DNA from: an uncultured Schlesneria sp.
GTDB taxonomy: Bacteria > Planctomycetota > Planctomycetia > Planctomycetales > Planctomycetaceae
Reading direction: 5' to 3'
Assembly (NCBI GenBank): GCA_903840265.1
Contig: CAIMFH010000025.1
Span: 124,001 to 188,000, forward strand
DNA length: 64,000 nt
Below, piece after piece: positions 5,567 through 50,962 of the stretch (positions are counted from its first letter, which is position 1; each line of letters starts with the position of its first letter). The notes under the pieces were generated by a model. It had not been told where the DNA came from. It was given only the letters and a program-made list of their open reading frames with translations, and searched no databases. A program made the position numbers and the translations under genes.

Positions 5567-7321
5567 TCAATCGGCCTTCGCCGGTTCTGCTGCTTCTGTC
5601 GTCGAATCTGTCTCAGTAGTGGATTCTGTCGACCCGTCGCGCAGTTTGCGGCGTAAGACCTTGCCGAGGAAATTGCGAGGCAATTCTCCTTCAATGATCT
5701 CCAGGATCTTCGGCACCTTGTGATGTGCCAGATGCTCTTTCATGTAAGTCTGAAAGTGATGTTGGTTGAAGTGCGATTTGCTCTTCACTGCGACAATTGC
5801 CTTCACGATTTCTCCACGTTGACGATCCGGCACTCCGACGACGGCAGCATCTTTGACGTCGTCATATTGTTTCAGAACGTATTCCACGTCGTTTGGATAG
5901 ACGTTAAAGCCGCTGGTGATGATCAAATCTTTCTTGCGATCGACGATCTTGAAGAAGCCGTCCTGATCACAGGTTGCCAGGTCTCCCGTAAACAGCCAGC
6001 GGTCTTTCAACACGTTGGCCGTGGCTTCCTCGTTGTTCCAATAGCCCAACATGACTTGAGGGCCCCGGACTATCAGTTCACCGACTTCGCCAGGTGGAAG
6101 AATGTGTTCCCCTGTTTCAGCGTCGACGATTCTTGCTTGGGTATCTGGTAACGGGAAGCCAATCGTCCCGATGCGAGCGTTTCCATCAAGCGGACCGGCA
6201 TGAGTCACAGGACTGCATTCCGAAAGCCCAAAACCTTCGACAACCTGCGCACCGGTAAATTCAGCGAATTCAGTGGCCGTTTCGGGCATCAGTGGAGCCC
6301 CTCCCGAGATGACCCACATCAACGAACGGACGTCCCATTTGCCGGGATTGTCCCGCAGTCGCTGGTTCAACACATGCAACATGGCAGGTACTGCCGGAAA
6401 GACACTCGGTCGCGCCGACTTGATCAAATCCAAGACTGTTTCTGGCTGGAAGCGATGATGCAGGACCAGCGTCGCTGCCATCGCGATGCCTGAGGTCGCG
6501 CACGTCGAGAGACCATAACTGTGGAAGAATGGAATCACGGCCAGGAATGTGTCGCGGCCGGTTCGATTACCACACCACGCCTTCAGCTGCAACGCGTTCG
6601 CCAGCAGGTTGGCATGTGACAAGGTCACCGCTTTCGGATGCCCTGTCGTGCCACCTGTGGGAAGGATGTACGCTGGCGATTGCGATTCGGCGTGAACCGG
6701 ATCGGCAATCGGCTCGTGATGAGGGATCTCTGCGGCGAAATCTTTGAATTCAATGTGCGAATCGACGTGCAAACCACGTTTCTGCAGGCACGCAGCGCGA
6801 TACAACAGTCGCTTCATCGTGTGTAAACGCGACGCGATCGAACAGGTCAGGATGCGACTGGGGCGGTGCTTGCCTTGGGTGGCGAGCGGAGCCAGTAGAT
6901 CGAGCGCGACGATCAACTTGCAGCCCGTCGCGGACATCATTTCATCGATTTCGCCTGCGACCGACAGCGGACTCAGCGAGACCACGATGCCGCCAGCCAT
7001 CCAGATGCCGTACGCGGCGATCAGGTATTCCGGGACATTGGGCAGCAACAAGCCGACTCGATCGCCAGGCTGGATTCCGAGAGACTGGAACAAGGACGCC
7101 GCACGACGGGCCTGTTCATACAGTTCTTCGTAGGTAGTGCGCTCGTCGAAGTAGCGAACGGCAAGGCGATGTGGAAAGCGTTCGGCCGTGTTCTTCAGCA
7201 GCCACCACACCGGCTCTTGAGGATATTCCAAGTGGGCAGGTGTACAACTCGGATACTGCTTCAGCCATGGGGCAGCAGTATCTTCCAACGCAATCCGATC
7301 TTGAGCAAATGAAATGGACAT
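5567..7321 (-). CDS. fadD: Long-chain fatty acid-CoA ligase (AMP-binding)
   Basis: Adenylate-forming enzyme that activates a fatty acid to acyl-CoA with ATP and so feeds the downstream beta-oxidation genes. From the ATG at 7321 it is 584 residues. The P-loop-like signature PTGGTTGHPKAV lies near residue 224, the A5 motif GFGLSECSPVT follows, and TGDLAT plus DRKKDLIITSGFNVYPNDVE near residue 460 give the hinge region. The last 20 or so residues are Thr/Glu/Ala-rich. The start at 7321 is preferred because AGAGAGGGA precedes it at normal spacing; an upstream in-frame start at 7414 would add a segment unlike the family. It is separated by 215 bases from the thiolase, so it may be first in the operon or separately transcribed. 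The exact chain-length preference cannot be read. Confidence 0.9.
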   Translation of the reverse strand: MSISFAQDRIALEDTAAPWLKQYPSCTPAHLEYPQEPVWWLLKNTAERFPHRLAVRYFDERTTYEELYEQARRAASLFQSLGIQPGDRVGLLLPNVPEYLIAAYGIWMAGGIVVSLSPLSVAGEIDEMMSATGCKLIVALDLLAPLATQGKHRPSRILTCSIASRLHTMKRLLYRAACLQKRGLHVDSHIEFKDFAAEIPHHEPIADPVHAESQSPAYILPTGGTTGHPKAVTLSHANLLANALQLKAWCGNRTGRDTFLAVIPFFHSYGLSTCATSGIAMAATLVLHHRFQPETVLDLIKSARPSVFPAVPAMLHVLNQRLRDNPGKWDVRSLMWVISGGAPLMPETATEFAEFTGAQVVEGFGLSECSPVTHAGPLDGNARIGTIGFPLPDTQARIVDAETGEHILPPGEVGELIVRGPQVMLGYWNNEEATANVLKDRWLFTGDLATCDQDGFFKIVDRKKDLIITSGFNVYPNDVEYVLKQYDDVKDAAVVGVPDRQRGEIVKAIVAVKSKSHFNQHHFQTYMKEHLAHHKVPKILEIIEGELPRNFLGKVLRRKLRDGSTESTTETDSTTEAAEPAKAD

Positions 7322-7662
7322 GGTTGCATCCCTCTCTTTTCCATCAATCGCATCATGTGGTCCATCAAAGGTGAACTGGAAGCAAAACGGATACCTAATC
7401 TCTTCAACGATCAATACGCTTCAAAAGATCAAATCGTGGGGACGCACCCCAAATCACTTTCACGAACCGTCGACCAGCCTTCGACTTACGTGTGGGTCGA
7501 ATTTCCACACTGGAGATCTTCGCCTCATGTTGTTTCCTTCGTTTATCTAAGTATTAACCACCTGAGGTGACCGGCAAGATGTAACCACTCGTATATTGCG
7601 AGGAATTCATCGATTGGGCTGTCCTTGGACGGAACTCGCAGCAGTCGCACTACTTTCCGCCA
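7322..7662. other. Divergent intergenic region, fadD-type gene / pilus locus
   Basis: About 340 bases lie between the minus-strand acyl-CoA ligase and the plus-strand pilus genes, so promoters for both directions should be here. I see two short inverted repeats, TGGGG/CCCCA at 7437-7451 and GTGTGG/CCACAC near 7491-7512, but no convincing promoter boxes or coding sequence. Confidence 0.3.
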
Positions 7663-19954: not shown

Positions 19955-20878
19955 ATGCTCGAATTCTTCAAGAAGCTGATGCAGGGCCGATCCAAAGTGC
20001 CGAAACTGGACGTCACCAAACGCTTCCAGTTAGTCAGTCGCGTTGGCCAGGGAAGCATGTCGAAGGTTTGGCGTGCCGTTGATGGCTACAACGGTCGCAC
20101 AGTCGCTTTGAAGTTGCTGGACATCGAAAAGACCAAACGCCTGGAAGCTCGCTTCAAGGGAATCAAAACCCCGAAGCCGACTGAAGGTGACGTCGCCCTG
20201 AAGCTGAAGCATCCCCACATCGTCCAGACTTTCGAAGTGGGAATCACGACCAATAACGAACAGTACCTGGTGATGGAGTTCGTGGAAGGGGTCAGCCTAA
20301 GCTATCTGGTGGATGTCCAGAACGAAGTCATGCAGCGCAACCGCCTGAAATTCATGATCGAACTGGGCGAGGCGATCGAATATTTTCATCGCCAGAACTG
20401 GATCCATCGCGACATCTGTCCGCGGAACATCCTGCTCGACACAGACTACTCGATCAAGCTCATTGATTTCGGTCTGGTCGTCCCGAATACCCCCGAGTTT
20501 CAAGCTCCCGGGAATCGTACGGGGACCGCCAACTATATGGCCCCCGAGTTGATTAAACGGCAACGAACTGACCAGCGAATCGACATCTTTTCGTACGCGG
20601 TCACCTGCTACGAGATGTATGCCAAGAGACTCCCATGGGAAGCGGCCGAGACGTTGGATGCAGTTGTCCAGCACATCAACAATCCTCCCGAAGATCTAAA
20701 GCGCCATTGCCCTGACATCGATCCGCGAGTGGCACACGTGATCATGAAAGGTCTCTGCGTCGAACCGCGCGACCGCTGGCAGACGATGGGACAACTGCTT
20801 GAAAAGCTACGCGAGGTGCGTGCGGACGAGACGGTGAAACCAGCACCAGCAGCGAAGCCGAAGCCAAAGAGCAAGTAA
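19955..20878 (+). CDS. Small Ser/Thr protein kinase
   Basis: Hanks-type kinase domain with almost nothing else (307 residues). From the ATG at 19955: Gly-rich loop VGQGSMSKVWRA (30-41), ATP lysine Lys53, probable helix-C glutamate Glu77, catalytic loop IHRDICPRNILLD (150-162) with Asp153 and Asn158, DFG at 171-173 and APE at 196-198. The catalytic-loop lysine of Ser/Thr kinases (HRDxKPxN) is replaced by Cys155. There is no transmembrane helix; a short Lys/Pro/Ala-rich tail ends the protein. A TTG two codons upstream is a possible alternative start. The target is unknown; the upstream gene is accD. Confidence 0.85.
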   Translation: MLEFFKKLMQGRSKVPKLDVTKRFQLVSRVGQGSMSKVWRAVDGYNGRTVALKLLDIEKTKRLEARFKGIKTPKPTEGDVALKLKHPHIVQTFEVGITTNNEQYLVMEFVEGVSLSYLVDVQNEVMQRNRLKFMIELGEAIEYFHRQNWIHRDICPRNILLDTDYSIKLIDFGLVVPNTPEFQAPGNRTGTANYMAPELIKRQRTDQRIDIFSYAVTCYEMYAKRLPWEAAETLDAVVQHINNPPEDLKRHCPDIDPRVAHVIMKGLCVEPRDRWQTMGQLLEKLREVRADETVKPAPAAKPKPKSK

Positions 20879-20908
20879 ACAAATTGCGATCTCTCCGTTC
20901 GGCCTGAC

Positions 20909-21526
20909 TCACCAAACAGCGTCTTCGCTTCGGATGGACGCCAATTCTGCCTCCAATTCTTTCACGCGTCTCTCAAGCCCCTCGATCACCGGCGCGATTT
21001 GATTCTGTGAAAACCGCTTGTGGATGTGCTGGTGACAGTTCACGTCCCAGGCCTCGAGTGTGAATAAAATCGCTCGTTCTACTTTGCCTGGATAGGCGGG
21101 GTCGCGAAGCTTTTCAAGCAGAGCCGGGTCACCTTCGACGACCCTAGCCGTCCCCCACAACTTCACTCGCTGACTGTTCGCGTAGTCCATCAAGAAGATG
21201 AACGCCTGGGGGTTCTCGGACAGGTTGCCGAGTGTGATGTACTGTCGGTTGCCTCCAAAATCAGCGAATCCCAAGGTGTGATCGTCGATCACTTTTAGAA
21301 AGCCCGGTGCTCCCCCACGGTACTGGATGTAAGGCTGGCCCTGAGCGTTGGCGGTTCCGAGGTAGAACATATCCAAGCTCGCTAAAAATTCGGCCAATTC
21401 ATCGGAAACGGTTGTTTGCCACCCATAACCATTCTCCATCCGCGAGTACTTAACTCGCGAACCTTTTTCTTCTTGGATCGTCTTCACTGCAGGTGTAAAG
21501 GCGATGTCACTGGGGAACGCAACCAT
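20909..21526 (-). CDS. Pyridoxamine 5'-phosphate oxidase-like FMN-binding protein
   Basis: A 205-residue protein with the split-barrel flavin-binding fold seen in PPOX-like proteins: FLASLDMFYLGTANAQGQPY, VIDDHTLGFADFGGNRQYITLGNL and ANSQRVKLWGTARVVEG are the usual strands and FMN-phosphate contacts. The C-terminus contains a short Glu-rich helix (IEGLERRVKELEAELASIR). It probably reduces or binds a small molecule with FMN, but the substrate is unknown. AGGAGAA precedes the ATG. It is third in a minus-strand set with the DUF417 and AhpD-like genes, a combination that suggests oxidative or electrophile stress handling. Confidence 0.8.
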   Translation of the reverse strand: MVAFPSDIAFTPAVKTIQEEKGSRVKYSRMENGYGWQTTVSDELAEFLASLDMFYLGTANAQGQPYIQYRGGAPGFLKVIDDHTLGFADFGGNRQYITLGNLSENPQAFIFLMDYANSQRVKLWGTARVVEGDPALLEKLRDPAYPGKVERAILFTLEAWDVNCHQHIHKRFSQNQIAPVIEGLERRVKELEAELASIRSEDAVW

Positions 21527-21557
21527 GGTTATTTTCTCCTCATTTTATTCACCAACA

Positions 21558-22196
21558 CTAAACGGCGCAGAGTTCTCGTGCGCTACTTTCAGTCTCATTT
21601 TGTTTGCCACTTGCTTGATTCATGAGATTCCTTGATCGAAGGTAGGCCTTAGCGGAATCTGCCATTGTCACGAGCGCGGCCCCCATCATGATGGCGTCTT
21701 TAATAACTAAGCGGCCAGCACCAGACAGTAGCGGGAAGCCGTGCTCGGGACTGCCGAGCGGCTGGACCCAGCACTCAGGAGTTGTGATCAGGAATGACAG
21801 CGTCACGAACGACATTGTGAACACGAGGAAACTTCCAACAGCGGCGATGCGGGGCGATGCCGCGTGTAACGTAATCATTGCCCCGTAGGCAACGATCACA
21901 GCTCCCAGCCCCTGGGCGAATGGATACGTACCGTTCTTCTCGTGCCATTCCTGATTCGCGGGAATCAGCTCTCCTTCTTTGTTCATATGCTTGCGGTATT
22001 CACCCGCGGGCTGATGATAGAAGAAGCTCATGAACGGGCTGTTGGCGACGAACGGGACGATCCCTTCATCTTCATATTTGTACATCTTGAGTGCACCAAT
22101 CCACACCAGCACGACGACCAGACCGATACGCGTGACCGTGACTCCGACCTTGTCGAAACGAGCTGCCGACTCAAACAAATCATCAAAACTGTTCAT
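21558..22196 (-). CDS. DUF417 (YkgB-like) membrane protein
   Basis: A 212-residue inner-membrane protein with about four hydrophobic helices. IGLVVVLVWIGALKMYKYEDEGIVPFVANSP near the N-terminus and AAVGSFLVFTMSFVTLSFLITTPECW in the third helix match YkgB/DUF417 proteins (E. coli YkgB, RclC), which in E. coli belong to a reactive-chlorine-inducible set. GGAGAAA precedes the ATG. Neighbours are the PPOX-like gene (31 bases downstream) and the AhpD-like gene (69 bases upstream). A stress role is an inference from family and context. Confidence 0.8.
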   Translation of the reverse strand: MNSFDDLFESAARFDKVGVTVTRIGLVVVLVWIGALKMYKYEDEGIVPFVANSPFMSFFYHQPAGEYRKHMNKEGELIPANQEWHEKNGTYPFAQGLGAVIVAYGAMITLHAASPRIAAVGSFLVFTMSFVTLSFLITTPECWVQPLGSPEHGFPLLSGAGRLVIKDAIMMGAALVTMADSAKAYLRSRNLMNQASGKQNETESSARELCAV

Positions 22197-22265
22197 GATA
22201 TTTCTCCATTCACCCGGACGTGGCTTACTTCAATTGAAAACGAATCAGTTGAATCGAATTTCACT

Positions 22266-22826
22266 TCAATTGGTTTCGGCCAGTTCTGGATCCAGAGCGG
22301 GAGCCTTAGGAAAATCGATGTCCGTTCCGGCAACGATATTGAAGTAGTTTGTCAGCACACTTAGAGCTACATGCGCTACAGTTTCGGCAATGTCCGCGTC
22401 CGTAAAACCAAGTTCACGCAGGCCATCAACATCCTGATCGTCGACGTGCCCGCGCTGATCAACGACTTTGTGAACGAACTGCAGCAAGGCATTTGTCTTG
22501 CCGTCGACGGCGAGCGAGTGACGGCTGTCGCGGATCTGGTCAGCCGTCAGCCCGACCGACCTGGCAATCGTCGAATGAGCGGCCAGACAGTAGTCGCAAC
22601 CGTTGTCCTGAGAGACAGCGAGGGCAATTTGCTGGCGCTGCTTAGCCGTGAGTGAACCCCTGCTGATACTGTTACTGAACTGAAGGTATCACTCTAAGAC
22701 GCCAGGTGAGTTCGCCATCGCTCGCATCATGTTGGGAACCATTCCCAACTTCTTCTGGACCGAATTGAATAGCTCTTGAACTTCGCCGGTAGCAGATTCA
22801 GTAACGATTTGTGGTAGGCGCGACAT
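22266..22826 (-). pseudogene. AhpD/carboxymuconolactone decarboxylase-family peroxidase gene interrupted by in-frame UGA
   Basis: Reading from the ATG at 22826 (AAGGA site upstream) gives 45 residues ending MANSPGVLE, a TGA at 22689-22691, and then 140 more residues in the same frame to a normal stop at 22266. The downstream part holds the redox motif NGCDYCLAAH (Cys77, Cys80, His84), the AhpD active-site signature. Relatives usually read VLEGYL here, so the TGA most simply derives from GGA (Gly) by one base change. Both sides of the stop are well conserved in type, so the lesion is recent, a sequencing error, or read through. The family reduces peroxides or carries out related thiol chemistry. 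Confidence 0.8.
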
Positions 22827-23032
22827 CGTGAATTCCTTTGATAAGTTGATTGCCCTGCAAAAACTCAGTCTGGATGGTCCTAAATACAATTCCCGTTCCA
22901 TCTTCCAATTAATTCATAAGAACCTCTGCAGTATTAGGTTGCGAACAATTCGAACACCTGCCGATAAAAACGAAATATCGTTACCCGACGATTATTCGTT
23001 GTGATGCAGCGAGAATTCGTTATCGTGAGTCG
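22827..23032. promoter_or_regulatory. Divergent control region with ATTCGTT/AACGAAT elements
   Basis: This gap separates the minus-strand AhpD-like set from the sigma-54 activator. It holds a near-palindrome AACGAAATATCGTT at 22969-22982 and two ATTCGTT copies near 22993 and 23014, so a repeated operator is plausible. I found no GG-N10-GC sigma-54 promoter core on either strand. It is assigned by position and repeat content only. Confidence 0.35.
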
Positions 23033-24631
23033 ATGCCACTCGTCGGAGATCCGAAACGCATTTTGTTAGAATTGGCCGGGCAACATCATTTGCCCGACCT
23101 GCTGCCGCTCGCGGTCCGTCGACTCTCAGAGTCACCGGAAATCGCTCTCGTCCGCATCTGGCTGTTGTTACCGCCGCTCGCTAACGACTGTGGGACGTGT
23201 CGCTTGGCAGCGGAATGCCGCGATCGTGAACGATGTCTGCATCTGGTCGCGAGCGCCGGTCGGCCACTCGATGACTCGAAGAGTTCCTGGACTGGGCTCG
23301 ACGGCAGTTTTCGTCGCTTTCCAGTGGGTGTGCGGAAGGTCGGGCATATCGCGCTGACCGGTCAATCTCTGGAGGTTCCTGACCTGAGTTGCGACTGGGA
23401 ATGGGCGGCCAATCCGGACTGGGTTCGCGACGAGCAGATCACCTCGTTCGTGGGCCATCCGCTGATCCATCGCGGGCAGGTGCTGGGCGTTTTAGGAGTC
23501 TTCGCCCGCGAACATGCCGGCGACGCGTGCATCGAGTGGTTGCGCATGATCACGGACCACTTGGCGGCGGCGATTGCCAATTCGCGAGCCTTGGACGAAA
23601 TCGAATCGCTCAAGAAAAAGCTCGAACTGGAGAATGAGTATCTTCGCGAAGAAGTCCGATCAAGTGTTTCGTTTGGTGAGATGGTCGGCCAGAGTCCCGC
23701 TCTGCAAGCGGTTGTTCGTCAGATCGATCTGGTCGCCCCAACCGACTCGACTGTCCTGATCCAGGGCGAGAGTGGCACGGGGAAGGAATTGGTCGCTCGT
23801 GAAATTCACCGCCGCAGCAATCGCGCGAATCGTCCGCTGATTAAAGTGAACTGCGCGGCAATTTCACATGAACTCTATGAGAGCGAGTTTTTTGGTCATA
23901 CCAAAGGGGCCTTCACCGGCGCGCTACGTGATCGAGCCGGACGCTTCGAACTCGCGGACGGTGGGACATTGTTCCTCGACGAAATCGGCGAGATCCCGCT
24001 CGACCTGCAAGCCAAACTGCTGCGCGTGCTGCAGGAGGGAGAGCTAGAACGTGTCGGGGAAGAACGCACGCGCCGTGTGAATGTCCGGATCATTGCAGCG
24101 ACAAACCGGAACCTGCGAAAAGAGGCCGAAGCGGGACGGTTTCGACAGGATCTGTACTACCGGTTGAGCGTCTTCCCGATGGAACTGCCATCATTGCGGA
24201 ATCGGATTGAAGACATTCCCGTGCTGGCCGAACACTTCCTCCAACAGTTCGCCAGGCGTTTGGGGCGAAAGCGTCCTCGCCTGAGCCTGGCCATCGTTCA
24301 GCAATTGCAGCGCTACTCATGGCCCGGCAACGTGCGTGAGTTGCAGCATGTGCTGGAGAGGGCTTGTATTGTCGCTCCGGAAGGCCGACTGGAACTTGAT
24401 CTTCCCGATGAGACGGCCAAAAGCCCTATTGCGACATCGCCGCCAGAGTCCCTTGAACGCGTTTTGACTGAAAGCGAAATGCGAGCATCCGAATCCGGCA
24501 ATCTTCGACGGGCACTCGAAGTCACCGGTGGGAAGATCTATGGCCCGGATGGTGCGGCGGCCCTGATTGGCCTGAAGCCGACGACGTTAATCTCTCGACT
24601 CAAAGCGTACGGCATCACTGTCGGCAAATAG
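23033..24631 (+). CDS. Sigma-54-dependent activator (GAF-AAA-Fis HTH, NorR/FhlA-like)
   Basis: A 532-residue transcriptional activator. The N-terminal GAF-like sensor (to about 190) contains four cysteines, Cys53-x2-Cys56-x5-Cys62-x5-Cys68, that could bind metal or an Fe-S centre. The AAA+ domain has Walker A GESGTGKE (about 243), the sigma-54 contact loop GAFTGA (about 292) and Walker [12 protein letters not shown] (about 310). The C-terminus ends in a Fis-type helix-turn-helix ([20 protein letters not shown]). It is divergent from the AhpD-like/DUF417/PPOX-like set, which it probably controls. The inducing signal is unknown; NorR (nitric oxide) is only an architectural comparison. Confidence 0.88.
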
Positions 24632-24761
24632 GCAGACTTCGTGTCATCGGTCTCGGACCGATCTGGGCAGGAATCACAGTGAATGCCCCGTTGCTCTTGC
24701 TGGTCGTCACCCCTATAGTTTTCCCTTCGATACTCTAAAGAGTCCCTTTTAGAATTGAGTG

Positions 24762-32224: not shown

Positions 32225-33628
32225 ATGGTGGCCCACGCCTCGCCTTGTGATCAAGATCGATTGCGGCGGTTATTGGACGATGACTTGCCTGAAACCGTGC
32301 AAACGGAAGTCGCCGCGCACCTCGAAACGTGCCGCGGCTGTCGTCAGCAATTGGAATCTCTGGCCGCAGCTGACATCATCTGGCAAGAGACACGATCAGC
32401 GCTGTCGAATGCTGATGAAGCATTCCCGGGTCTTGCGGCGACTAACGATCACGAAGATTCAAATACGATTCCGCTCGACTTTCTTTCGCCTTCGGATAAC
32501 CCAGCCATGTTGGGTCGGATCGGCGAATTTGAGATCCTGGAACTGATCGGTTGTGGCGGAATGGGGATCGTGCTGAAAGGCTACGATCACGAACTGAACC
32601 GCTATGTCGCGGTCAAGGTCCTGCACCCGCATTGTGCGACGAGTGCGGCAGCACGTCGCCGATTCGCACGCGAAGCGCAGGCCGCCGCAGCAGTCGTCCA
32701 CCAGCATGTGGTGGCGATCCACGCCGTCGGCGGCAACCACCATCCACCCTATCTAGTCATGTCTTTCGTTCCCGGCGAATCGCTGCAGCAACGATTGAAT
32801 CGACAGGGACCGTTCGAGGTCGTCGACGTGTTGCGAATCGGCCAACAAGTGGCCGAGGGTTTGGCCGCAGCGCATGCACAGGGACTGGTTCATCGCGATA
32901 TCAAGCCGGGCAATATCCTGCTCGAACGAAACGTCGATCGCGTCCTCCTCACCGATTTCGGACTTGCCCGTGCGGCCGATGACGCCAGCCTGACTCAAAG
33001 CGGAGTGATCGCGGGAACGCCTCAATATATGTCCCCCGAGCAGGCGCGGGGTGACAACGTCGACGTCCGCACCGATTTGTTCAGCCTGGGCAGCGTGATG
33101 TATACGCTACTCGCGGGGCACTCACCGTTCCGTGCCGAAACGGCCATGGGTGTGTTGCGGCGAGTCTGTGATGATACGCCTCGTTCGTTGCGAGAATTCA
33201 ATCCGAACGTTCCCGAATGGCTGGAGATGTTCGTGGCGCGGCTGCAAGCCAAGCTGCCGAACGACCGTTTCGAATCAGCAGCACAAGTCGCGGACTTACT
33301 GAAGGGAAGCCTGGCCCATCTGCAGCAACCGACGTTGCTCAGCTTGCCAGCGGCAGTTAGCCGTTTAGTCAGTCGTAAAAGGCGACGAGCGCACGTTTCA
33401 AGTTGGAAGCGAATCGTTGGCACGACAGCTTTGTTGGCCGCTCTGACTCTCGGTTCGGTCCTATATCTGAGGCTGCAGCAGCCGACTGCAACACGAGTTA
33501 TTCCGGAAATACAATCGTCAAAAGACCTCGCACCAGAGGACGCTTGGGACGACGACTTCACCACCGAGTCCAATTTGATCCGCCAATCCGTCGAGCGTCT
33601 GGAAGCGGAATCACCCGACCAGTTTTAG
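32225..33628 (+). CDS. Zinc-finger anti-sigma-like / Ser/Thr protein kinase fusion
   Basis: A 467-residue protein. Residues 1-50 form a zf-HC2-like motif, AAHLETCRGCRQQLE (His32, Cys36, Cys39, with Cys8 as a possible fourth ligand), as in anti-sigma factors. A Hanks-type kinase follows: ELIGCGGMGIVLKG (106-119), Lys131, VHRDIKPGN (222-230), DFG 244-246 and PEQAR; all key catalytic residues are present. One membrane helix (about 398-416) separates a basic stretch from a short outer tail. Lying between an ECF sigma factor and a large membrane-anchored protein, it probably links an external signal to sigma-factor activity by sequestration or phosphorylation. AAGGA precedes the ATG. Confidence 0.88.
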   Translation: MVAHASPCDQDRLRRLLDDDLPETVQTEVAAHLETCRGCRQQLESLAAADIIWQETRSALSNADEAFPGLAATNDHEDSNTIPLDFLSPSDNPAMLGRIGEFEILELIGCGGMGIVLKGYDHELNRYVAVKVLHPHCATSAAARRRFAREAQAAAAVVHQHVVAIHAVGGNHHPPYLVMSFVPGESLQQRLNRQGPFEVVDVLRIGQQVAEGLAAAHAQGLVHRDIKPGNILLERNVDRVLLTDFGLARAADDASLTQSGVIAGTPQYMSPEQARGDNVDVRTDLFSLGSVMYTLLAGHSPFRAETAMGVLRRVCDDTPRSLREFNPNVPEWLEMFVARLQAKLPNDRFESAAQVADLLKGSLAHLQQPTLLSLPAAVSRLVSRKRRRAHVSSWKRIVGTTALLAALTLGSVLYLRLQQPTATRVIPEIQSSKDLAPEDAWDDDFTTESNLIRQSVERLEAESPDQF

Positions 33629-33681
33629 CACGTACTGTCTGCATCACATCGACATTTGTCAGATCATTACGAGGACATCTC

Positions 33682-36600
33682 ATGAGCCAGACGCCCCCCG
33701 AATCGAAGCCCAAAAAGACTAGTTACCGCTGGCTGTGGGTGGTGCTCGCAATGTTAGGCTTCGTCCCCGTGATGATGATCGTGGGCCTGATCGGTCTATA
33801 CATGCTGAGATCGCAGGCCACATTTCATGACTTTGCGGCCCGCGAACGTCAACACGCGGCCCAAGCCTGGCAACACCAGGAAGCAACACGAACTGTTACG
33901 ACTCAATCAACACCAGCACTCCCTCCCCTGATACAAGCCCCCAAAAAGCGGGCTCACGTTGTCCGGATCCAGCTCGATTTTGAAGACTTTGAAACTCGAT
34001 TCGCCAATGCCATCACGGTTGATCGCGACCAGCAAGGGGCGCGATTGATGGTGCCGTCCGAGGTCTTCACGCCGATGTCAGGAAAGATCAATGGCCGAAT
34101 TGTGACTCGGGCGGCTGGGGCACCGAAGGTCATTGAAGTGAGTGGCGAGTCATGGCCAACAGGAGGGATGGGGATGCCCGCAGTGGGCGGAATGGGCGGA
34201 GTGCCAGGAATGGGTGGTGCGACAATGGGAGGTTCACCGGCGGTGGCCGGCGTCGCCATCCTAGGAATTGGCCTGACCGAGCTGACGTTGAACAACTGGG
34301 ACCTGACTCCAATCCGCGTCATCGGCGATTTTCCAGAAGCTTCGATTGGCGACAAGCTCATGGTCGTGTCACTCCCTGAAGACTTCGGATACGCACGAGA
34401 AGTGACAGTTCTGGGAACTGATGAATCGGTGCAATTGGGCGACGGTTCGAAGTTGGATCACCTTCTCAAGTTGACAGAATGGACCGGAGCCCTGGGAGCC
34501 CTCGCCACCAACAGCAACGGTGAACCGATCGGGCAGATCATTTTCACGAAGCCTGGAAAATTGCGGTATTCCTACGCCGTCCCGATGGATCGAATCTTTC
34601 AGGCGATCTACGAGCAGAAGCGGCAAGGAAATACTTCATCCCCAATTGAGGACGAAACACGACAATCGCTTGAGGTTCGATCACCCTTTCTAAGGGAAAA
34701 GAGGGAGGCTGGTGCTGCACGCTTGCCGATCGCAGCGCCCGGATTTCCACCTGATCCTCGGCACGAACTCTTGGAAACTCGTGTGAATGACTTTCTGACT
34801 TTGGACGAAGTCGCTCCCATGCTGGAACGATTGCGTGCTGAACCTTCACTGCCAGATCTCCCACCAGAAACTCTGCCACCTGGTAATACCGGGGGGCCGA
34901 CCAATTTAGCACCGGCAGCAGAGATCACCCCCGCCGACGCATCACGCCCTGATCTTTCGGTAGATCAAGAAACGAAGGTCTACCAGGTATTCGGTCCCGC
35001 GCAGGAAGTTGCCGAAACACTGAGATCTCTCTATGGAGATGTCGCAAAAATCGCCGCGAATCAGACGAGTCGATCTGTGATTACGGTCGCTTCCCCGACA
35101 GTGCAGGAAAAAATCGCTGCCACGATCGAAGATCTGCGCAAACGAGCCCAGAGTTTGGAGAACGAGCAGGCCAAAAAAGATGAACGCCAAATTGAACGAA
35201 TGAAGGAGTTGAACTCCAGGCAGCGTGCACAAATGCAGGCAGCGCGAAAGGCCGTCGCGACGAAAGAACCGATCACCGAGAAAGAGCGCCAGACGACTCC
35301 GCCGGAGACAACAACATCTCTCGTCGCAGAAGCCCGGCAGCAAGTCCAACTCTATTCCGAACAAGATCGCGAAGCGAAACAACTCGCCCTGCAACTGCGA
35401 ACTGCCGCCCCGTCGGATCAGCTCGCCTTGCGAACGAAGCTTGAGAAACTGACCGAACAACAATTTCAGGCACGCCAGGACCTGCGCAAGAAGGAAATCG
35501 ACGATCTAGGCAATCGCATCGATCAGCTGCGAGTCACCCAGTTGCGCCGCCAACAGAATCAAGCCGAGATCATTCGTCGCCGCGTCGACGAATTGCTCGA
35601 TCCCAACAACGATTTGCGCTGGGAGCAATCGCAAAGCAAGACGGGGAATCTCACCGATGCTTCTGTATTTGCATCCGAAAAAGCGGTAGAGACGACAAAG
35701 AGGGAGGACCCGCTCAAGGGAATTGTCGAGAGGACCTTCGATGGAATTCCCTACTCAAGTTGGCGGACGATGCTGGAGACGGAACGAAAGCCCGGAAAAT
35801 TGTCCGCCGCCATGGAAGCGTGCAGTCGCCTGGCAGTCGGTGATGAAGATACTCATCGAATTGCCAAAGAGATCATCCTGACGGCGGGATTGTTCGAACA
35901 GGGAAACAGCGATGACCGGGACGAAGTCTGGGGTGCTGCGAATGCCGCGTTGCTCCGGTTGCCCGAGGATCTTGTCGTCGATGAACTGTTGTCATCGCTA
36001 AGTCTTCCCGAATCAATCAAGCGAGGGCGAACCTTTCAAGGTCGCTTCATTCTGACCCGTTACCCATACCCCAGGGTTAAGACTTTCGGGGATCGCGATC
36101 AGGAGGCGATCACGAAACTCGTGAAGGCGGCTCAAACGAACGGCAAGGATCGGAATTGCCTGCTCGCCGCGGCTTGCCGAATCTGGGAAATCTCAGAACA
36201 CCAACTGCAGGACTTCGAAGGACTTCAGTCACTTATCAATCAGCGAATTGACAGCGCTGTGAACGCGAAATCGATTTCTGATGGCGATTGGTATGACGTC
36301 GCACATGCCCTGGTGGCGAAGAATCCAGAGACTCCCGACTTGGCATTGAAGCTTACGAAGCTGGCGACGGATTCCGCTGGCGAAAACTATTTTGTAGGTG
36401 TGTTTAATCTCGTTGGCCAACTCGGGCGTCATGCTGAACCGGCCATCCCGATCATCATCGAGCAGATCCTGGCCGAGTTGAAGAGACTCGAGGAATTCGA
36501 AAAGGACAGTGGGGGACTCGACGGTTATCGTCAGCCCGATCGTGCAGCCTATCTCGTGAGAATATTGGGTGACATTGGCGTCGGCGCTAATGCTGCGAGG

Positions 36601-37146
36601 TTGCTGAAGGAGCTATGCCTAAGTGCCGACGCTTATCCTCGAAACTCGCAGTTATTCACCATTTCGCAGGAAGCGCGAACCTCGCTCCAGAAATTCGCGC
36701 GCGTTCCGGATATGGACGGCCCACCGATTCTGGGAGACGAATTCCTGATCCGTGGCATCTGGCAATTGCATAGTGCGAACTTTGAAAAGCCAGTGGATTG
36801 CGAAGCTTCGATCGGACGGGGTCACATTGATCTGCTGACTTCACAGAATGGCAAGCGCAGAGGCATCAGCGATACCGTCGACGGGAATTGGATTGCGGGT
36901 CAAGTAAAGCTGGATCCGACCAAAATGGTGAAGGAGATCGTCCTCACGAATCCGGGAGAGTCGAAAGGGCCGCCGAAACGAAACGGGATCTACGAGTTGA
37001 CAGAGACCTCGCTTAAGATCTATCTGGCCCCCCTGAACAGGCCCGCGCCGACGGAAATGATCGAGGCAGGATCGCCCATTCCAGACGGGTATTCGCTGAT
37101 CGAATGGCGACGTTCATTGTCACTCCCGTCACGTCCCGGAAACTGA
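33682..37146 (+). CDS. Large membrane-anchored protein with coiled coil and TIGR03067-like C-terminus
   Basis: An 1154-residue protein, third in the ECF operon. Residues 17-42 form a membrane anchor, so the rest is probably outside. Residues 90-290 include a Gly/Met-rich stretch and a region with IGQIIFTKPGKLRYSYAVP, not clearly assigned. Around 430-490, VYQVFGPAQEVAETLRSLYGD resembles a secretin-N/NolW-like repeat, followed by a long charged coiled coil (about 485-660), a helical part that may be HEAT-like, and a C-terminal TIGR03067-like domain (IRGIWQLHSANFEKP, MVKEIVLTNPGE, GIYELTETSLKIYLAP). The ATG at 33682 is chosen because GAGGACATCTC precedes it; an earlier in-frame start would overlap the kinase gene. 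Function unknown; a substrate or sensor of the kinase is likely. Confidence 0.75.
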   Translation: MSQTPPESKPKKTSYRWLWVVLAMLGFVPVMMIVGLIGLYMLRSQATFHDFAARERQHAAQAWQHQEATRTVTTQSTPALPPLIQAPKKRAHVVRIQLDFEDFETRFANAITVDRDQQGARLMVPSEVFTPMSGKINGRIVTRAAGAPKVIEVSGESWPTGGMGMPAVGGMGGVPGMGGATMGGSPAVAGVAILGIGLTELTLNNWDLTPIRVIGDFPEASIGDKLMVVSLPEDFGYAREVTVLGTDESVQLGDGSKLDHLLKLTEWTGALGALATNSNGEPIGQIIFTKPGKLRYSYAVPMDRIFQAIYEQKRQGNTSSPIEDETRQSLEVRSPFLREKREAGAARLPIAAPGFPPDPRHELLETRVNDFLTLDEVAPMLERLRAEPSLPDLPPETLPPGNTGGPTNLAPAAEITPADASRPDLSVDQETKVYQVFGPAQEVAETLRSLYGDVAKIAANQTSRSVITVASPTVQEKIAATIEDLRKRAQSLENEQAKKDERQIERMKELNSRQRAQMQAARKAVATKEPITEKERQTTPPETTTSLVAEARQQVQLYSEQDREAKQLALQLRTAAPSDQLALRTKLEKLTEQQFQARQDLRKKEIDDLGNRIDQLRVTQLRRQQNQAEIIRRRVDELLDPNNDLRWEQSQSKTGNLTDASVFASEKAVETTKREDPLKGIVERTFDGIPYSSWRTMLETERKPGKLSAAMEACSRLAVGDEDTHRIAKEIILTAGLFEQGNSDDRDEVWGAANAALLRLPEDLVVDELLSSLSLPESIKRGRTFQGRFILTRYPYPRVKTFGDRDQEAITKLVKAAQTNGKDRNCLLAAACRIWEISEHQLQDFEGLQSLINQRIDSAVNAKSISDGDWYDVAHALVAKNPETPDLALKLTKLATDSAGENYFVGVFNLVGQLGRHAEPAIPIIIEQILAELKRLEEFEKDSGGLDGYRQPDRAAYLVRILGDIGVGANAARLLKELCLSADAYPRNSQLFTISQEARTSLQKFARVPDMDGPPILGDEFLIRGIWQLHSANFEKPVDCEASIGRGHIDLLTSQNGKRRGISDTVDGNWIAGQVKLDPTKMVKEIVLTNPGESKGPPKRNGIYELTETSLKIYLAPLNRPAPTEMIEAGSPIPDGYSLIEWRRSLSLPSRPGN

Positions 37147-45978: not shown

Positions 45979-48900
45979 TTAGGCACTCACAGCAGCAGGA
46001 TTAGTGTTCATCGCTGTCGGCAGATCGATCGGCTGCAAATTTGGAACAACCTCGCGGGCCAACGCCACCATGTGTGGGTGGCAGGTGAAGAACAGGATCT
46101 GCACCGACTTAGCGACCTCCGCAAGTGTCATCAATGTTTGTCGAACGCGGCCATCGTCGAAGTTGACCAGGACGTCATCCATCACAATCGGCAATGGTTC
46201 GTTCTGCTGGCAGTAGTGCAGAACGTACGCCAGGCGAATCGCCAGATACAACTGTTCACGAGTCCCAGAGCTCAACTGCTCGGGCGTCCTTTCGGCTCCA
46301 TCATGGCGTCGAATCAGAATCCCCTGCGTGTTGCCAGTGGTTCGATCGAACTCGATATAGCGTCCGGCGGTCATCTGGTTGATCAGGCGCGAAACCGTGG
46401 CGATCATTTCGGGCTGGTGTTCGCGTTCGAATCGACGAACCGCTTCACTAAGCAGGTGTTTGGCAAAAACCAGAGGAACGTACCGATCAACCTCGGCGGC
46501 TAGTTGCGATCGTTTACGAAACAGTTGATCGGTAAGACTTGCTGCCTCGCCGGATCCATCCAGGCGAGCCAGATCGTTTTTCGCGACCGCTGCTGCTCCG
46601 TCAGCTTCGCTTTTCTGTTGCTCAGCGGCGTGCAGCCGCTCAGAGAGATCTCGGCGTTGATCTTCGAGGATGTCGGCGTCCTGCTGGCTAAGCATTCGTT
46701 CGAATTCTTCTCTGTCTTCCCCGGCACGGATGAGATCGATCTCGCGAGTTCGCTGTTCCAGATCCGCATCGAGTCGAGCGATCTTTTCAGCTCGAGCGAC
46801 CACGTCGAAAAACTCGATCTCCGTATCGACTTGAGCGGCGGCGAATAGTTCCGTTCGCTCGGCAACAAATTTGGCGATTCTCTCGTCGTTCAAGCGACGT
46901 TGTTCGGTTGCTTGATCTCGTTCGCGACAGAGTTGATCAAATTGTTTCTGAGTTTCGGCAGCGCGTTCAAGTTGATCCGAAAGCTTCTCGATCGCGAGTT
47001 CCAGCGGGTCACGCAATAAATCCGAAGCGAGTGCTTCACACAGCGGACGAACGCGAGCGGCAAATTCATCGAGCCTGGCCTGCATTGCGGCCAATCGCTC
47101 TTCTTCCTGTGGAAGGTTATCCAGCTTCACGCGGGTGCCAAGTAATCGTTCGATAACCGTGCGAGTCAATTCTGTATCGAAATCCGCAGGAAATCGAAGC
47201 TGACGAAGAACCGCCTGCCAAGACTTTTTCGATGCTTCTTCGCGATCAAGGGCTGTCTTGAGTTCGATATCGCATTGTTCGATCTGTGGTTCCAGACGGC
47301 TGAGTTCGCGATACAGTTCCTTGCTGCGACTGACGTGCTCTTTGGCATCATCTACTGTTGATTGGGCCCGAACCAACAGAACAGGCACCGCTGAATCGTC
47401 CCCACACACGAGGCGCAAGCGAGATTCGAATGCAGTGACTTGGCTTTTCAGCTGCTCAGTCTCGGCAAATAATTCATCTCGCTTGGTGATGGTCTCGCAC
47501 ACGGCTTCATGATCGGTCACCCATTGCCGCATGGCATCAGGGTCAAGCGGCTCAAACTTGCATGACGCCCACGCTAAAATCCAGCCTTGTTGCAACTCGG
47601 CGGTCTGTTGCTTCAATTCGGCCACTTGTTCGTGGCGTTGGTCGATACGAGTCGTCAGGACATCAATTTGCCGTCGGAACTGTTCGCGTCGAGCCACCGC
47701 GTCGGCATTGGCATAGATATCGTCGGCGATTGCATCGGCATCTCGAACGGCCTGTTCAAATGCGTCGCTCTGTGATTCCGGATTCGCCTCCAGCCAAGCT
47801 GCTTGATTGCCGTCAATCAATCGCAGACGAATTTCCGCCCAACTGGCATCACGCTTCTGGCGAGCCGCATCGCGCTCTCTCAGACTCGGAACGGTGCCGC
47901 GAGATGTCACCTCGTCCAATTTATCCTGTATCTCGGTCCGTTCGCATTTGTCTTGCTGCAAGGATTCGGAAGTCGTCCGAAGCTGTTCGCGCAAGTCAGC
48001 GAAGTCTGATTCGAATTGTTTGATCGTACTTACGTGAGGAACCGGCAAGTCTCGAACGTTGCTTGCATCGGCGACACTCGGGAACAGTTTTTTCAGTTGG
48101 GCAGTCAACAGCCGGTCGGCTTTTGCGAGTTCAACGGCTCGTTTCTCAAGCACCTTGACGTCGCTGCGATAGGCCGATTCATCAGACAGGACCGCGATCA
48201 ACTCGGAGACATCGCGCGACTCACCAAGTGCATGCAGATCGGCGCGACTCTGTCGTAGCTGCGCGTCAACCTGTGTGCGTTTTGCACGAAGTTCTGCCTG
48301 AGTCGTTTCGCGAAGTCGTTGCTCGTCAGTCAACCGCTCAATGTCGGCTCGCATGGCGACATCGATTGCGAATCCTCGCAATTCTTCATGATTCCATCCG
48401 GGCCTGAGTTCGCTCAACTCGCGATCAATCTGTTGCCGCGAGGCCGCGTGCTCGGTCTTGAGTTTAGGAAGATCGGCCTTCGCTTCCAAAAATGACTGCT
48501 TCATCTCCAGACAGGCCCGAATTTCCGCTCGATAGGAGACTGCACGAGGATCCAGCTTCAGTGCGTCCAGCTCTCGTTCGAGCATCGCAATCGATCGAGT
48601 CAACTTCGCCGTTTCCTCTTCACCGGCCTGAATCTTCTCAGACACAGACGCATAGCGGGCACCGGCATTCGCAGGCAGTGTTTTGGGAACGGTTAGCGGC
48701 GAGCGGTCGCTGCGGCACTGTTGGAGTTCGGCCCACTTCTGATGTGCTCGACACAGTTTCTCAAGGCGACCATGATCACGGCGCAACTGGACCACGGCCT
48801 GCTGAAATGCTGCGGCTTGTTGGCCTGAGTCATCAACGAGGCGTTTGGACTTCTCATAGCGGTCGGGCCGCACACTCTTCTCTTTAATTTGCTCCGGTAG

Positions 48901-49470
48901 GACCTTCAGTTCGCTAAGTAACTGGTTGATCGACGGCTTTCGTGCGACAGGGCTGAACAACTCGCCTGCCTGCCGTTCCAATTCTTGCAGGATGCGCTCA
49001 GGGCTGGCGGAACTTCCCAGGCCACCTCCAAACAGGACCGATTGCAGACTCTCATGCTTCAGGCTCTCTTCCCCCTGGCTCAATTGATCAAGGCCGAAGG
49101 CAAAGATGGACTCAAACAGGCTGCGATTGGCGTTACCCATCAACCGTTGAAAGCCGGTTTCGTCCAGGCCAGTGTCGCAGCCATCGATCTTCACGCCAAC
49201 TTTATTCTTTGTCCCTTTGCGTCGACGCAATTCGACAGTGCGACCATCACCCAGAATCATCGTTCCGACACCTGCGATCTCTGCACCTCCTTTGAAGTCG
49301 TAGGGGGTTCGCGTTGGGAAGTCGAACAGCCAGCCACGCAGGAACTGCAACAGCGTTGTCTTACCTGCTTCATTCGGCCCGTAGATGACCTGCAGGCCGT
49401 CGCCAGGAATCGCGATGTCGCATTCGCTGAAGTGTCCAAATTGATTGATGTGCAGTTGTTGTAACTTCAT
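45979..49470 (-). CDS. YhaN-like AAA ATPase (SbcC/Rad50-related)
   Basis: An 1163-residue SMC-like ATPase. Walker A is GPNEAGKTT (31-39), coiled-coil arms follow, and the C-terminal part has the ABC signature QLSSGTREQLYLAIRLAY and Walker B LPIVMDDVLVNFDDGR. I found no CxxC zinc hook in the coiled coil, which fits YhaN better than SbcC or Rad50. It presumably acts with the adjacent nuclease at DNA ends. The start ATG overlaps the nuclease stop by four bases (ATGA), indicating coupling. Confidence 0.88.
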   Translation of the reverse strand: MKLQQLHINQFGHFSECDIAIPGDGLQVIYGPNEAGKTTLLQFLRGWLFDFPTRTPYDFKGGAEIAGVGTMILGDGRTVELRRRKGTKNKVGVKIDGCDTGLDETGFQRLMGNANRSLFESIFAFGLDQLSQGEESLKHESLQSVLFGGGLGSSASPERILQELERQAGELFSPVARKPSINQLLSELKVLPEQIKEKSVRPDRYEKSKRLVDDSGQQAAAFQQAVVQLRRDHGRLEKLCRAHQKWAELQQCRSDRSPLTVPKTLPANAGARYASVSEKIQAGEEETAKLTRSIAMLERELDALKLDPRAVSYRAEIRACLEMKQSFLEAKADLPKLKTEHAASRQQIDRELSELRPGWNHEELRGFAIDVAMRADIERLTDEQRLRETTQAELRAKRTQVDAQLRQSRADLHALGESRDVSELIAVLSDESAYRSDVKVLEKRAVELAKADRLLTAQLKKLFPSVADASNVRDLPVPHVSTIKQFESDFADLREQLRTTSESLQQDKCERTEIQDKLDEVTSRGTVPSLRERDAARQKRDASWAEIRLRLIDGNQAAWLEANPESQSDAFEQAVRDADAIADDIYANADAVARREQFRRQIDVLTTRIDQRHEQVAELKQQTAELQQGWILAWASCKFEPLDPDAMRQWVTDHEAVCETITKRDELFAETEQLKSQVTAFESRLRLVCGDDSAVPVLLVRAQSTVDDAKEHVSRSKELYRELSRLEPQIEQCDIELKTALDREEASKKSWQAVLRQLRFPADFDTELTRTVIERLLGTRVKLDNLPQEEERLAAMQARLDEFAARVRPLCEALASDLLRDPLELAIEKLSDQLERAAETQKQFDQLCRERDQATEQRRLNDERIAKFVAERTELFAAAQVDTEIEFFDVVARAEKIARLDADLEQRTREIDLIRAGEDREEFERMLSQQDADILEDQRRDLSERLHAAEQQKSEADGAAAVAKNDLARLDGSGEAASLTDQLFRKRSQLAAEVDRYVPLVFAKHLLSEAVRRFEREHQPEMIATVSRLINQMTAGRYIEFDRTTGNTQGILIRRHDGAERTPEQLSSGTREQLYLAIRLAYVLHYCQQNEPLPIVMDDVLVNFDDGRVRQTLMTLAEVAKSVQILFFTCHPHMVALAREVVPNLQPIDLPTAMNTNPAAVSA

Positions 49471-50741
49471 GGCGTCGACTCCTCGGCCAGATGACTGAGG
49501 AGCAGTTCTTCTGCGTCACGCAACCAAGCAACCAGTCGTTGAGGATCATCGAGATTCATGGCTTCGAAGCCGTCCTCACGAGGTGCCAGTTCGGCTCCAG
49601 CACGGGACATCAGAGGCTTCAGCAGTTCCTCGGACAGGCGAATTAGCTGCGTGGGGTCTTCAGCGATCTCCGCAATATTCCGCAGCAGATCGCCGACCAA
49701 ATCCTGACGAAGACGCATCGCATCGAGATTCAGCGGGGACTGAGTCCGAAACTTGATTTTCTCGATCCAGATATCGTCGCCAAAGTCACCGGCCAGTCCG
49801 CGCAAATTGGCAACGATTTGCTGTCGCGTGGCGTCTCGCGAAAGTTGCTGGTGGACATTGCAGCGTCCCTCAAATTGCAATCGCACGGCGGCCAGACGAC
49901 CATCAGCTAAGTGAGAAATCTGCCGCAGTGCCTGGCGCGCTCGATCCAGCAAGGCCGTTTCGTCGTCATCGGGCTGAAGTGTGATCGTTTCACGATACCA
50001 ACGCATCACATCGGTGTGACGAAACTCAACAGCCGCGACTTGGCGGTCTTCAACCGTGACCAGCAGACAGCCTTTAGCACCCAATTCCTTCGCGTGGCGC
50101 CCCTGAGTTGTGCCCGAGTAAGCAATATACGGTCGCTCGTGCAGAACTTGATAATCATGGACGTGGCCGAGTGCCCAGTAATCGTAGCCCTTCGCCGCGA
50201 GTTCATCGATCGAACAGGGAGCGTAGGGAGTGTGATCCAAATTGCCTCCCGCGTTCGTATGCAGCACCCCGATGTTAAAGCAGTCGGCACACGGCCCGGG
50301 ATAAGCGGGGACGAGATTATCAAAGACCTCACGTTTGGGATAACTCATCCCATGAATGGCGACGGGCAAGCGGGGATGGCGGACCGTGTGAGGCTCATCG
50401 TGCTTGAACACCGTAACGTTTTCGGGCCAAGGAACTCGTCGCACCATTTCATCGTGCGAATCGTGATTTCCCAGAATCAGATAGACCGGAATACCGGCTC
50501 GGTTCAGCCGTTGGAGCTGAGCCACGACAGACAATGCCGAATTGAAGTCGCGACAGGCTGTATCGAACAAGTCGCCCGCGATCAGCAGGAATTCAACGTG
50601 CTCGGCCAGGCACAGTTCGACGACATGATCCATGGCTCGCCGCGTTGCCAGTCGCAGTCGTTCGACAGGGGCACCGACATATTCCTCGAGCCCTCGCATA
50701 GGACTGTCGAGGTGTACATCGGCAGCGTGAATGAATTTCAT
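49467..50741 (-). CDS. YhaO/SbcD-like DNA repair nuclease
   Basis: A 424-residue metallophosphoesterase nuclease. The motifs are FIHAADVHLDSPMRGLEEYVG (Asp8, His10), LIAGDLFDTACRDFNSA (Asp57), LILGNHDSHDEM (Asn92, His93), GVLHTN and ALGHVHDYQVL; these are the expected metal-binding residues. The DSPMRGLEEYVG segment is typical of YhaO. It is coupled to the YhaN-like gene downstream and probably forms an SbcCD-like complex for processing blocked or broken ends. The ATG at 50741 begins with the conserved first strand; there is no clear ribosome site before it. Confidence 0.88.
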   Translation of the reverse strand: MKFIHAADVHLDSPMRGLEEYVGAPVERLRLATRRAMDHVVELCLAEHVEFLLIAGDLFDTACRDFNSALSVVAQLQRLNRAGIPVYLILGNHDSHDEMVRRVPWPENVTVFKHDEPHTVRHPRLPVAIHGMSYPKREVFDNLVPAYPGPCADCFNIGVLHTNAGGNLDHTPYAPCSIDELAAKGYDYWALGHVHDYQVLHERPYIAYSGTTQGRHAKELGAKGCLLVTVEDRQVAAVEFRHTDVMRWYRETITLQPDDDETALLDRARQALRQISHLADGRLAAVRLQFEGRCNVHQQLSRDATRQQIVANLRGLAGDFGDDIWIEKIKFRTQSPLNLDAMRLRQDLVGDLLRNIAEIAEDPTQLIRLSEELLKPLMSRAGAELAPREDGFEAMNLDDPQRLVAWLRDAEELLLSHLAEESTP

Positions 50742-50962
50742 AACCGGGCCATCCGTGTGTCGTCGCAGGAATATCCTGAAAACCTGCCATGTTACGGAGC
50801 GAACACGGAATGGGACAGCGAACGAAGTCGATTGGCAACCCATCGAGTCATTTCTCATTCCGCCAGGCTTTGCCCCGAATTGCTCACGGGCAGGGTAATT
50901 TAAGCCCGCTGCTTCCGCCATTCTCGTGCTGGCGAGAATCCAGCCAACGAAGAGACGACTAC

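Follow-up and report, generated by a model that had tools for sequence, protein, structure and literature searches.

The window analysed here, a 64,000-nucleotide stretch of contig C25 (positions 124001-188000) of the source genome (a 7.49-Mb draft in 204 contigs), carries on its minus strand an AhpD-like gene of the carboxymuconolactone decarboxylase (CMD) family, TIGR01926 type (22266..22826), which is interrupted by one premature in-frame TGA at codon 46 (22689..22691).

The interrupted gene and its neighbours

The frame opens with the ATG at 22826 and runs for 45 codons to the TGA (22691-22689), after which 140 codons follow in the same frame before a terminal TGA at the end of the gene (22266). 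Its translation reads MSRLPQIV...MANSPGVLE, then the stop, then YLQFSNS...NGCDYCLAAH...ETN. An earlier note on this DNA had reported the position of the TGA, the 140 further codons and the NGCDYCLAAH motif, all of which were recovered in the minus-strand translation; its coordinates for the frame were also right, but MANSPGVLE, which it placed at the ATG, represents residues 37-45. Both cysteines of the redox motif C77-D-Y-C80 (22587..22598, minus strand) are intact in the DNA, as had been stated, and lie 3' of the stop.

Profile searches with the read-through frame, in which X was placed at the stop, gave matches to Pfam CMD PF02627 (E 3.1e-17, 62.8 bits against 23, residues 41-117) and to the NCBIfam model TIGR01926, 'peroxidase-related enzyme' (92.4 bits against a curated cut-off of 81.8, residues 3-161). 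Since both matches span the stop, homology is continuous across the TGA and the interrupted frame is not a chance one. With the CxxC pair and the score above the curated cut-off, the gene belongs to the TIGR01926/CMD (AhpD-like) family, and its product would accordingly be peroxidase-related and of the peroxide-defence type. When the protein of the sister genome (G012) was used as the query, 6e8l, 3lvy and 2prr were obtained as solved relatives. Profile and full-length alignment assign the present gene to this family, and it has the CxxC motif in common with it. It differs in being interrupted at codon 46, which should leave its CxxC untranslated. No in-frame ATG, GTG or TTG follows the TGA before the TTG at 22487, which is 3' of both cysteines. 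A restart supplying the CxxC part was thus ruled out, and no redox site is expected in the product.

The next gene on the minus strand (21558..22196) is intact and encodes a DUF417 membrane protein (PF04224; 250.4 bits with the RclC model, under its cut-off of 275). The third (20909..21526, minus strand) encodes a PNPOx-like flavoprotein (PF01243) and is intact both here and in the sister. An intact divergent gene on the plus strand (23033..24631) encodes a GAF and sigma-54 activator (PF00158, PF01590), the likely regulator. A candidate -24/-12 (sigma-54) promoter, TGGAACGGGAATTGTA, could be identified at 22885..22900 of the minus strand; it is a weak variant and ends 58 nt before the ATG. Of 28 upstream regions, 22 have a [TC]GGCA[CT] element 54-80 nt before the ATG and four have none; these counts include three genomes twice, each with two locus names, and single scores often did not exceed those of shuffles. 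The window and the sister have the variant TGGAAC. In a number of relatives, the neighbourhood of AhpD likewise contains homologues of the activator and of the PNPOx-like protein, and DUF417 lies directly downstream of AhpD in L074, L076, L084 and L094. We presume that AhpD, DUF417 and PNPOx form a sigma-54-activated operon with AhpD as its first gene. A literature search for papers that treat AhpD, carboxymuconolactone decarboxylase and DUF417 together gave none. A plasmid origin was also considered and rejected, the sole match being weak and inside the activator gene.

Codon 46 in the family and the question of recoding

The frame of the sister is uninterrupted, 94% identical and has GGA at codon 46. 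Among 105 distinct homologues, the residue at this position was Gly in 63, Ala in 32, Ser in 7, Val in 2 and Phe in 1, and neither a stop nor Trp could be observed in any of them; nor did any have a stop elsewhere in the aligned part. These homologues derive from 109 loci (29 from a genome search and 80 named loci, the latter being the best 80 of 572 relatives matching a peptide pattern), from which four identical translations were dropped. Each locus contributed only its best match, and codon 46 lies outside the peptide patterns. Cysteines at 77 and 80 were present in 105 of 105, partly by construction, as the 80 named loci were found by patterns containing the motif. The one-base change from GGA to TGA proposed in the earlier note agrees with the codon of the sister and with Gly or Ala in 95 of 105 homologues, and the check that it had suggested, an alignment of the joined frame with relatives, revealed no other stop or UGA at this codon. 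The TGA cuts short a frame that the orthologues have in full, as expected of a nonsense pseudogene, and there is no conservation of the stop that would indicate recoding.

A family-wide search of 150 genomes (E <= 1e-40) gave 46 matches in 43 genomes, eight of which were flagged for internal stops, namely that of the source genome and seven others (L203-L209). All seven were inspected, and only in L203 was the aligned part truly interrupted by a stop; the other flags were due to alignments running beyond the natural end of the gene. This homologue (G114:C347:139300-140200), which the earlier note had not covered, is 54% identical to the protein of the sister and has a TGA at the variable codon 127, independent of codon 46. 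The G114 UGA may have a second reading besides nonsense, because this genome has SelA above the cut-off and because no DUF417, PNPOx or activator homologues occur within the surrounding 16 kb. The 50 nt from this UGA are predicted to fold at -18.1 kcal/mol.

Selenocysteine (Sec) at codon 46 had been judged unlikely in the earlier note. CxxU selenoproteins do occur in the wider AhpD family, some of them in the class and family of the source; a table in PMC13188914, which has TIGR01926, NF041238 and NF041047, lists Sec in TIGR01926-type AhpD proteins at CxxU. Such proteins belong to the same broad family and contain one in-frame UGA, but there it stands in place of the second redox Cys (PMC13188914). 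The UGA described here replaces Gly46, and its genome lacks both a SelA match and a SelB above the cut-off. We inspected 15 remote AhpD-family relatives (approximately 25-31% identity; L051-L065) chosen for their in-frame-stop flags. The TGA was at the second redox Cys in 12 of them (L053-L063 and L065) and at codon 46 in none, and L051, L052 and L064 had no stop in the matched part; tblastn placed 7 of the 15 and the profile search the rest. Judging from the position of the TGA, these 12 loci are probably selenoproteins of the known kind. They come from the same class as the source, and some from the same family. SelB was examined in four of their genomes and was above the cut-off in three, the fourth (G022) having fragments below it.

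No SelA match was found in the source genome, whereas G041, G023 and G114 were over the cut-off in the same search. The best SelB match, a 454-codon frame that we take to be EF-Tu, reached 166 bits against a cut-off of 242, which G041, G023 and G055 pass. With the tRNA-Sec model, 150 of the 1201 first-look candidates in the source genome were scored; the best of these reached 43.4, below the cut-off of 47, and was read as tRNA-Ser(CGA). It should be noted that this model alone is not decisive, with matches in 14 of 14 control genomes and scores over the cut-off in five. ARAGORN found no UCA anticodon in 13 stretches of the source genome, which hold all 19 listed tRNA-Sec candidates, and predicted tRNAs in 12 of these stretches (none in L177). 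Folding of the 60 nt that begin at the UGA did not surpass that of shuffled sequences (z 0.26), and a 73-nt stretch starting 10 nt earlier folded slightly better than its shuffles (z -1.5), 11 of 200 of which did as well. No Rfam match was found in 20500-24700. Codon 46 is occupied by Gly, Ala, Ser, Val or Phe, never Cys, in all 105 homologues and is not the CxxU position. Taken with the intact redox cysteines, these results bear out the earlier judgement, and insertion of Sec at codon 46 can be regarded as having a negligible chance of being correct. Reassignment of UGA was ruled out because UGA terminates 21 of the 38 compared ORFs of the window; it also terminates the AhpD-like gene itself.

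Constraint after the stop and damage to the operon in the sister

Comparison with the sister revealed 24 synonymous changes and 1 nonsynonymous change in codons 47-165 (omega 0.011), a range that omits the variable tail and was picked after the changes were seen, and 32 synonymous and 5 nonsynonymous changes in codons 47-186 (omega 0.04). Omega was 0.223 for codons 1-45 and 0.077 for the whole gene, the median for 38 ORFs of the window being 0.066. The rest of the operon was not elevated (0.042 for DUF417 and 0.068 for PNPOx). Thus, no relaxation of constraint could be observed after the stop. In a rough Poisson model for codons 47-165 with a background omega of 0.01, neutrality for 10% of the source branch had P = 0.026, and for 20% P = 0.00045. 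Since there is no decay after the stop, it would have to be very young, erroneous or not inactivating, and the data do not separate these three. Absence of relaxed constraint would be expected if the stop is very young, as a fresh pseudogene need not show decay. It nevertheless appears to be a point against a pseudogene, because an error or a full-length protein that is still made would give the same pattern.

Elsewhere in the window, synonymous divergence from the sister was approximately 1.0-1.4 at 5567-7414, 45979-49470 and 49467-50921, compared with mostly 0.2-0.7 in other parts, which suggests replaced alleles or recombination. A large ORF at 33403-37146 had an omega of 0.34 and 73% identity to the sister, compared with approximately 96% in its neighbours.

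A frame constrained like that of normal genes is also what one would expect if the UGA were read through by near-cognate tRNA-Trp or a suppressor, giving some full-length enzyme so that selection holds the downstream part. However, the youth of the stop would explain the constraint, codon 46 is neither a stop nor Trp in any of the 105 homologues, UGA serves as a terminator in the window and in this very gene, and the UCA anticodon is not among the tRNAs of the 13 scanned stretches, which cover part of the genome. We therefore consider read-through very improbable.

The other way in which a constrained frame could carry a TGA is an error of sequencing, assembly or consensus, including one allele of a mixed population, in which case the chromosome would encode glycine and the protein would be whole. 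The draft state of the assembly favors this, and so does the lack of decay, the single nonsynonymous change in codons 47-165 (five in 47-186) being the total for both lineages together and even a neutral tenth of the source branch being poorly compatible with the rough model. A survey of contig C25, on which the interruption rates rest, provided evidence on the other side. When ORFs of the sister were compared with the source genome (161 compared, 74 matched at >= 75%), six were flagged: the AhpD-like gene as the only clear interruption, four cases that we judge to be over-extended starts or shadow ORFs, and one ambiguous case (C16:32595-32110), where two stops fall within the first 95 of 161 residues and the last part is identical. 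In the opposite direction (154 compared, 72 matched), seven were flagged, and only DUF417 was clearly broken in the sister. Overall, 13 flags were inspected, as alignments (some over the first 180 columns) or as known lesions, and besides AhpD and DUF417 they comprised 10 over-extended starts or shadow ORFs and the ambiguous case. As no second clear interruption occurred among the 74 matched genes, the error rate should not be high. A literature search for papers that treat premature stop codons, pseudogenes and sequencing error together in metagenome-assembled genomes gave none.

The operon of the sister is damaged independently, which extends what the earlier note had described. Its DUF417 gene (L155, G012:C73, about 502) is frameshifted by a 10-bp deletion at the repeated GCATCGCC. 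In addition, two contigs of the sister, C37 and C73, break off between AhpD and DUF417, each in a different end of the same multicopy IS630-like element (L046, G012:C37, 15377-15503). The end of C37 occurs at seven places in the sister including itself, with 100% identity over 100-104 bases, and nowhere in the source genome or G011; a copy of the element of approximately 1,037 bp in L166 has both ends and encodes HTH_Tnp_IS630 and DDE_3 proteins. From the two contig ends we infer an IS630-like insertion between AhpD and DUF417. The chance that the one clearly broken gene of both genomes would fall in the same small operon was roughly estimated at 4-6% (3-4 of 72 genes), so the shared damage is suggestive only. 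Together with the other internal UGA in the G114 homologue, the damage in the sister raises the prior for a real loss and argues against an error, which we regard as unlikely though deserving serious weight.

A probable recent nonsense pseudogene and its meaning

With an ordinary bacterial nonsense pseudogene, the AhpD-like gene shares a single one-base stop in a formerly constrained frame and the absence of further decay. No difference from this kind was found here except for the independent damage to the copy of the operon in the sister. On balance, the gene has probably become a nonsense pseudogene very recently, and its operon is perhaps under weakened selection. A glycine codon GGA, as in the sister, would have changed to TGA at codon 46, and translation should release a 45-residue peptide lacking the redox CxxC. 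The stop would then be present in the real chromosome, the protein would not be made and selection on the operon would have weakened. Given the different lesions found in the sister, the presumed sigma-54-activated AhpD-DUF417-PNPOx operon may be losing its function in this sister-species pair. The interpretation given in the earlier note is supported; of the three explanations that it offered, we rank nonsense mutation first, error second and read-through a distant third. As a sequence feature the interruption is real and of an ordinary kind, and recoding is improbable.

The lesions, namely the nonsense mutation here and, in the sister, the 10-bp deletion and the inferred insertion of an IS630-like element, also allow a broader reading in which closely related planctomycete lineages have inactivated the operon several times and independently of each other, as a selected loss of a peroxide/reactive-chlorine defence module and not by drift. 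We consider this doubtful and put it forward as speculation.

For the family, our analysis cautions that AhpD-family genes with an in-frame UGA can resemble selenoprotein genes, a question that the position of the UGA, the absence of Sec machinery and the orthologues settle. For these bacteria, the independent damage to the operon of the sister provides a small lead on where the defence module is dispensable.
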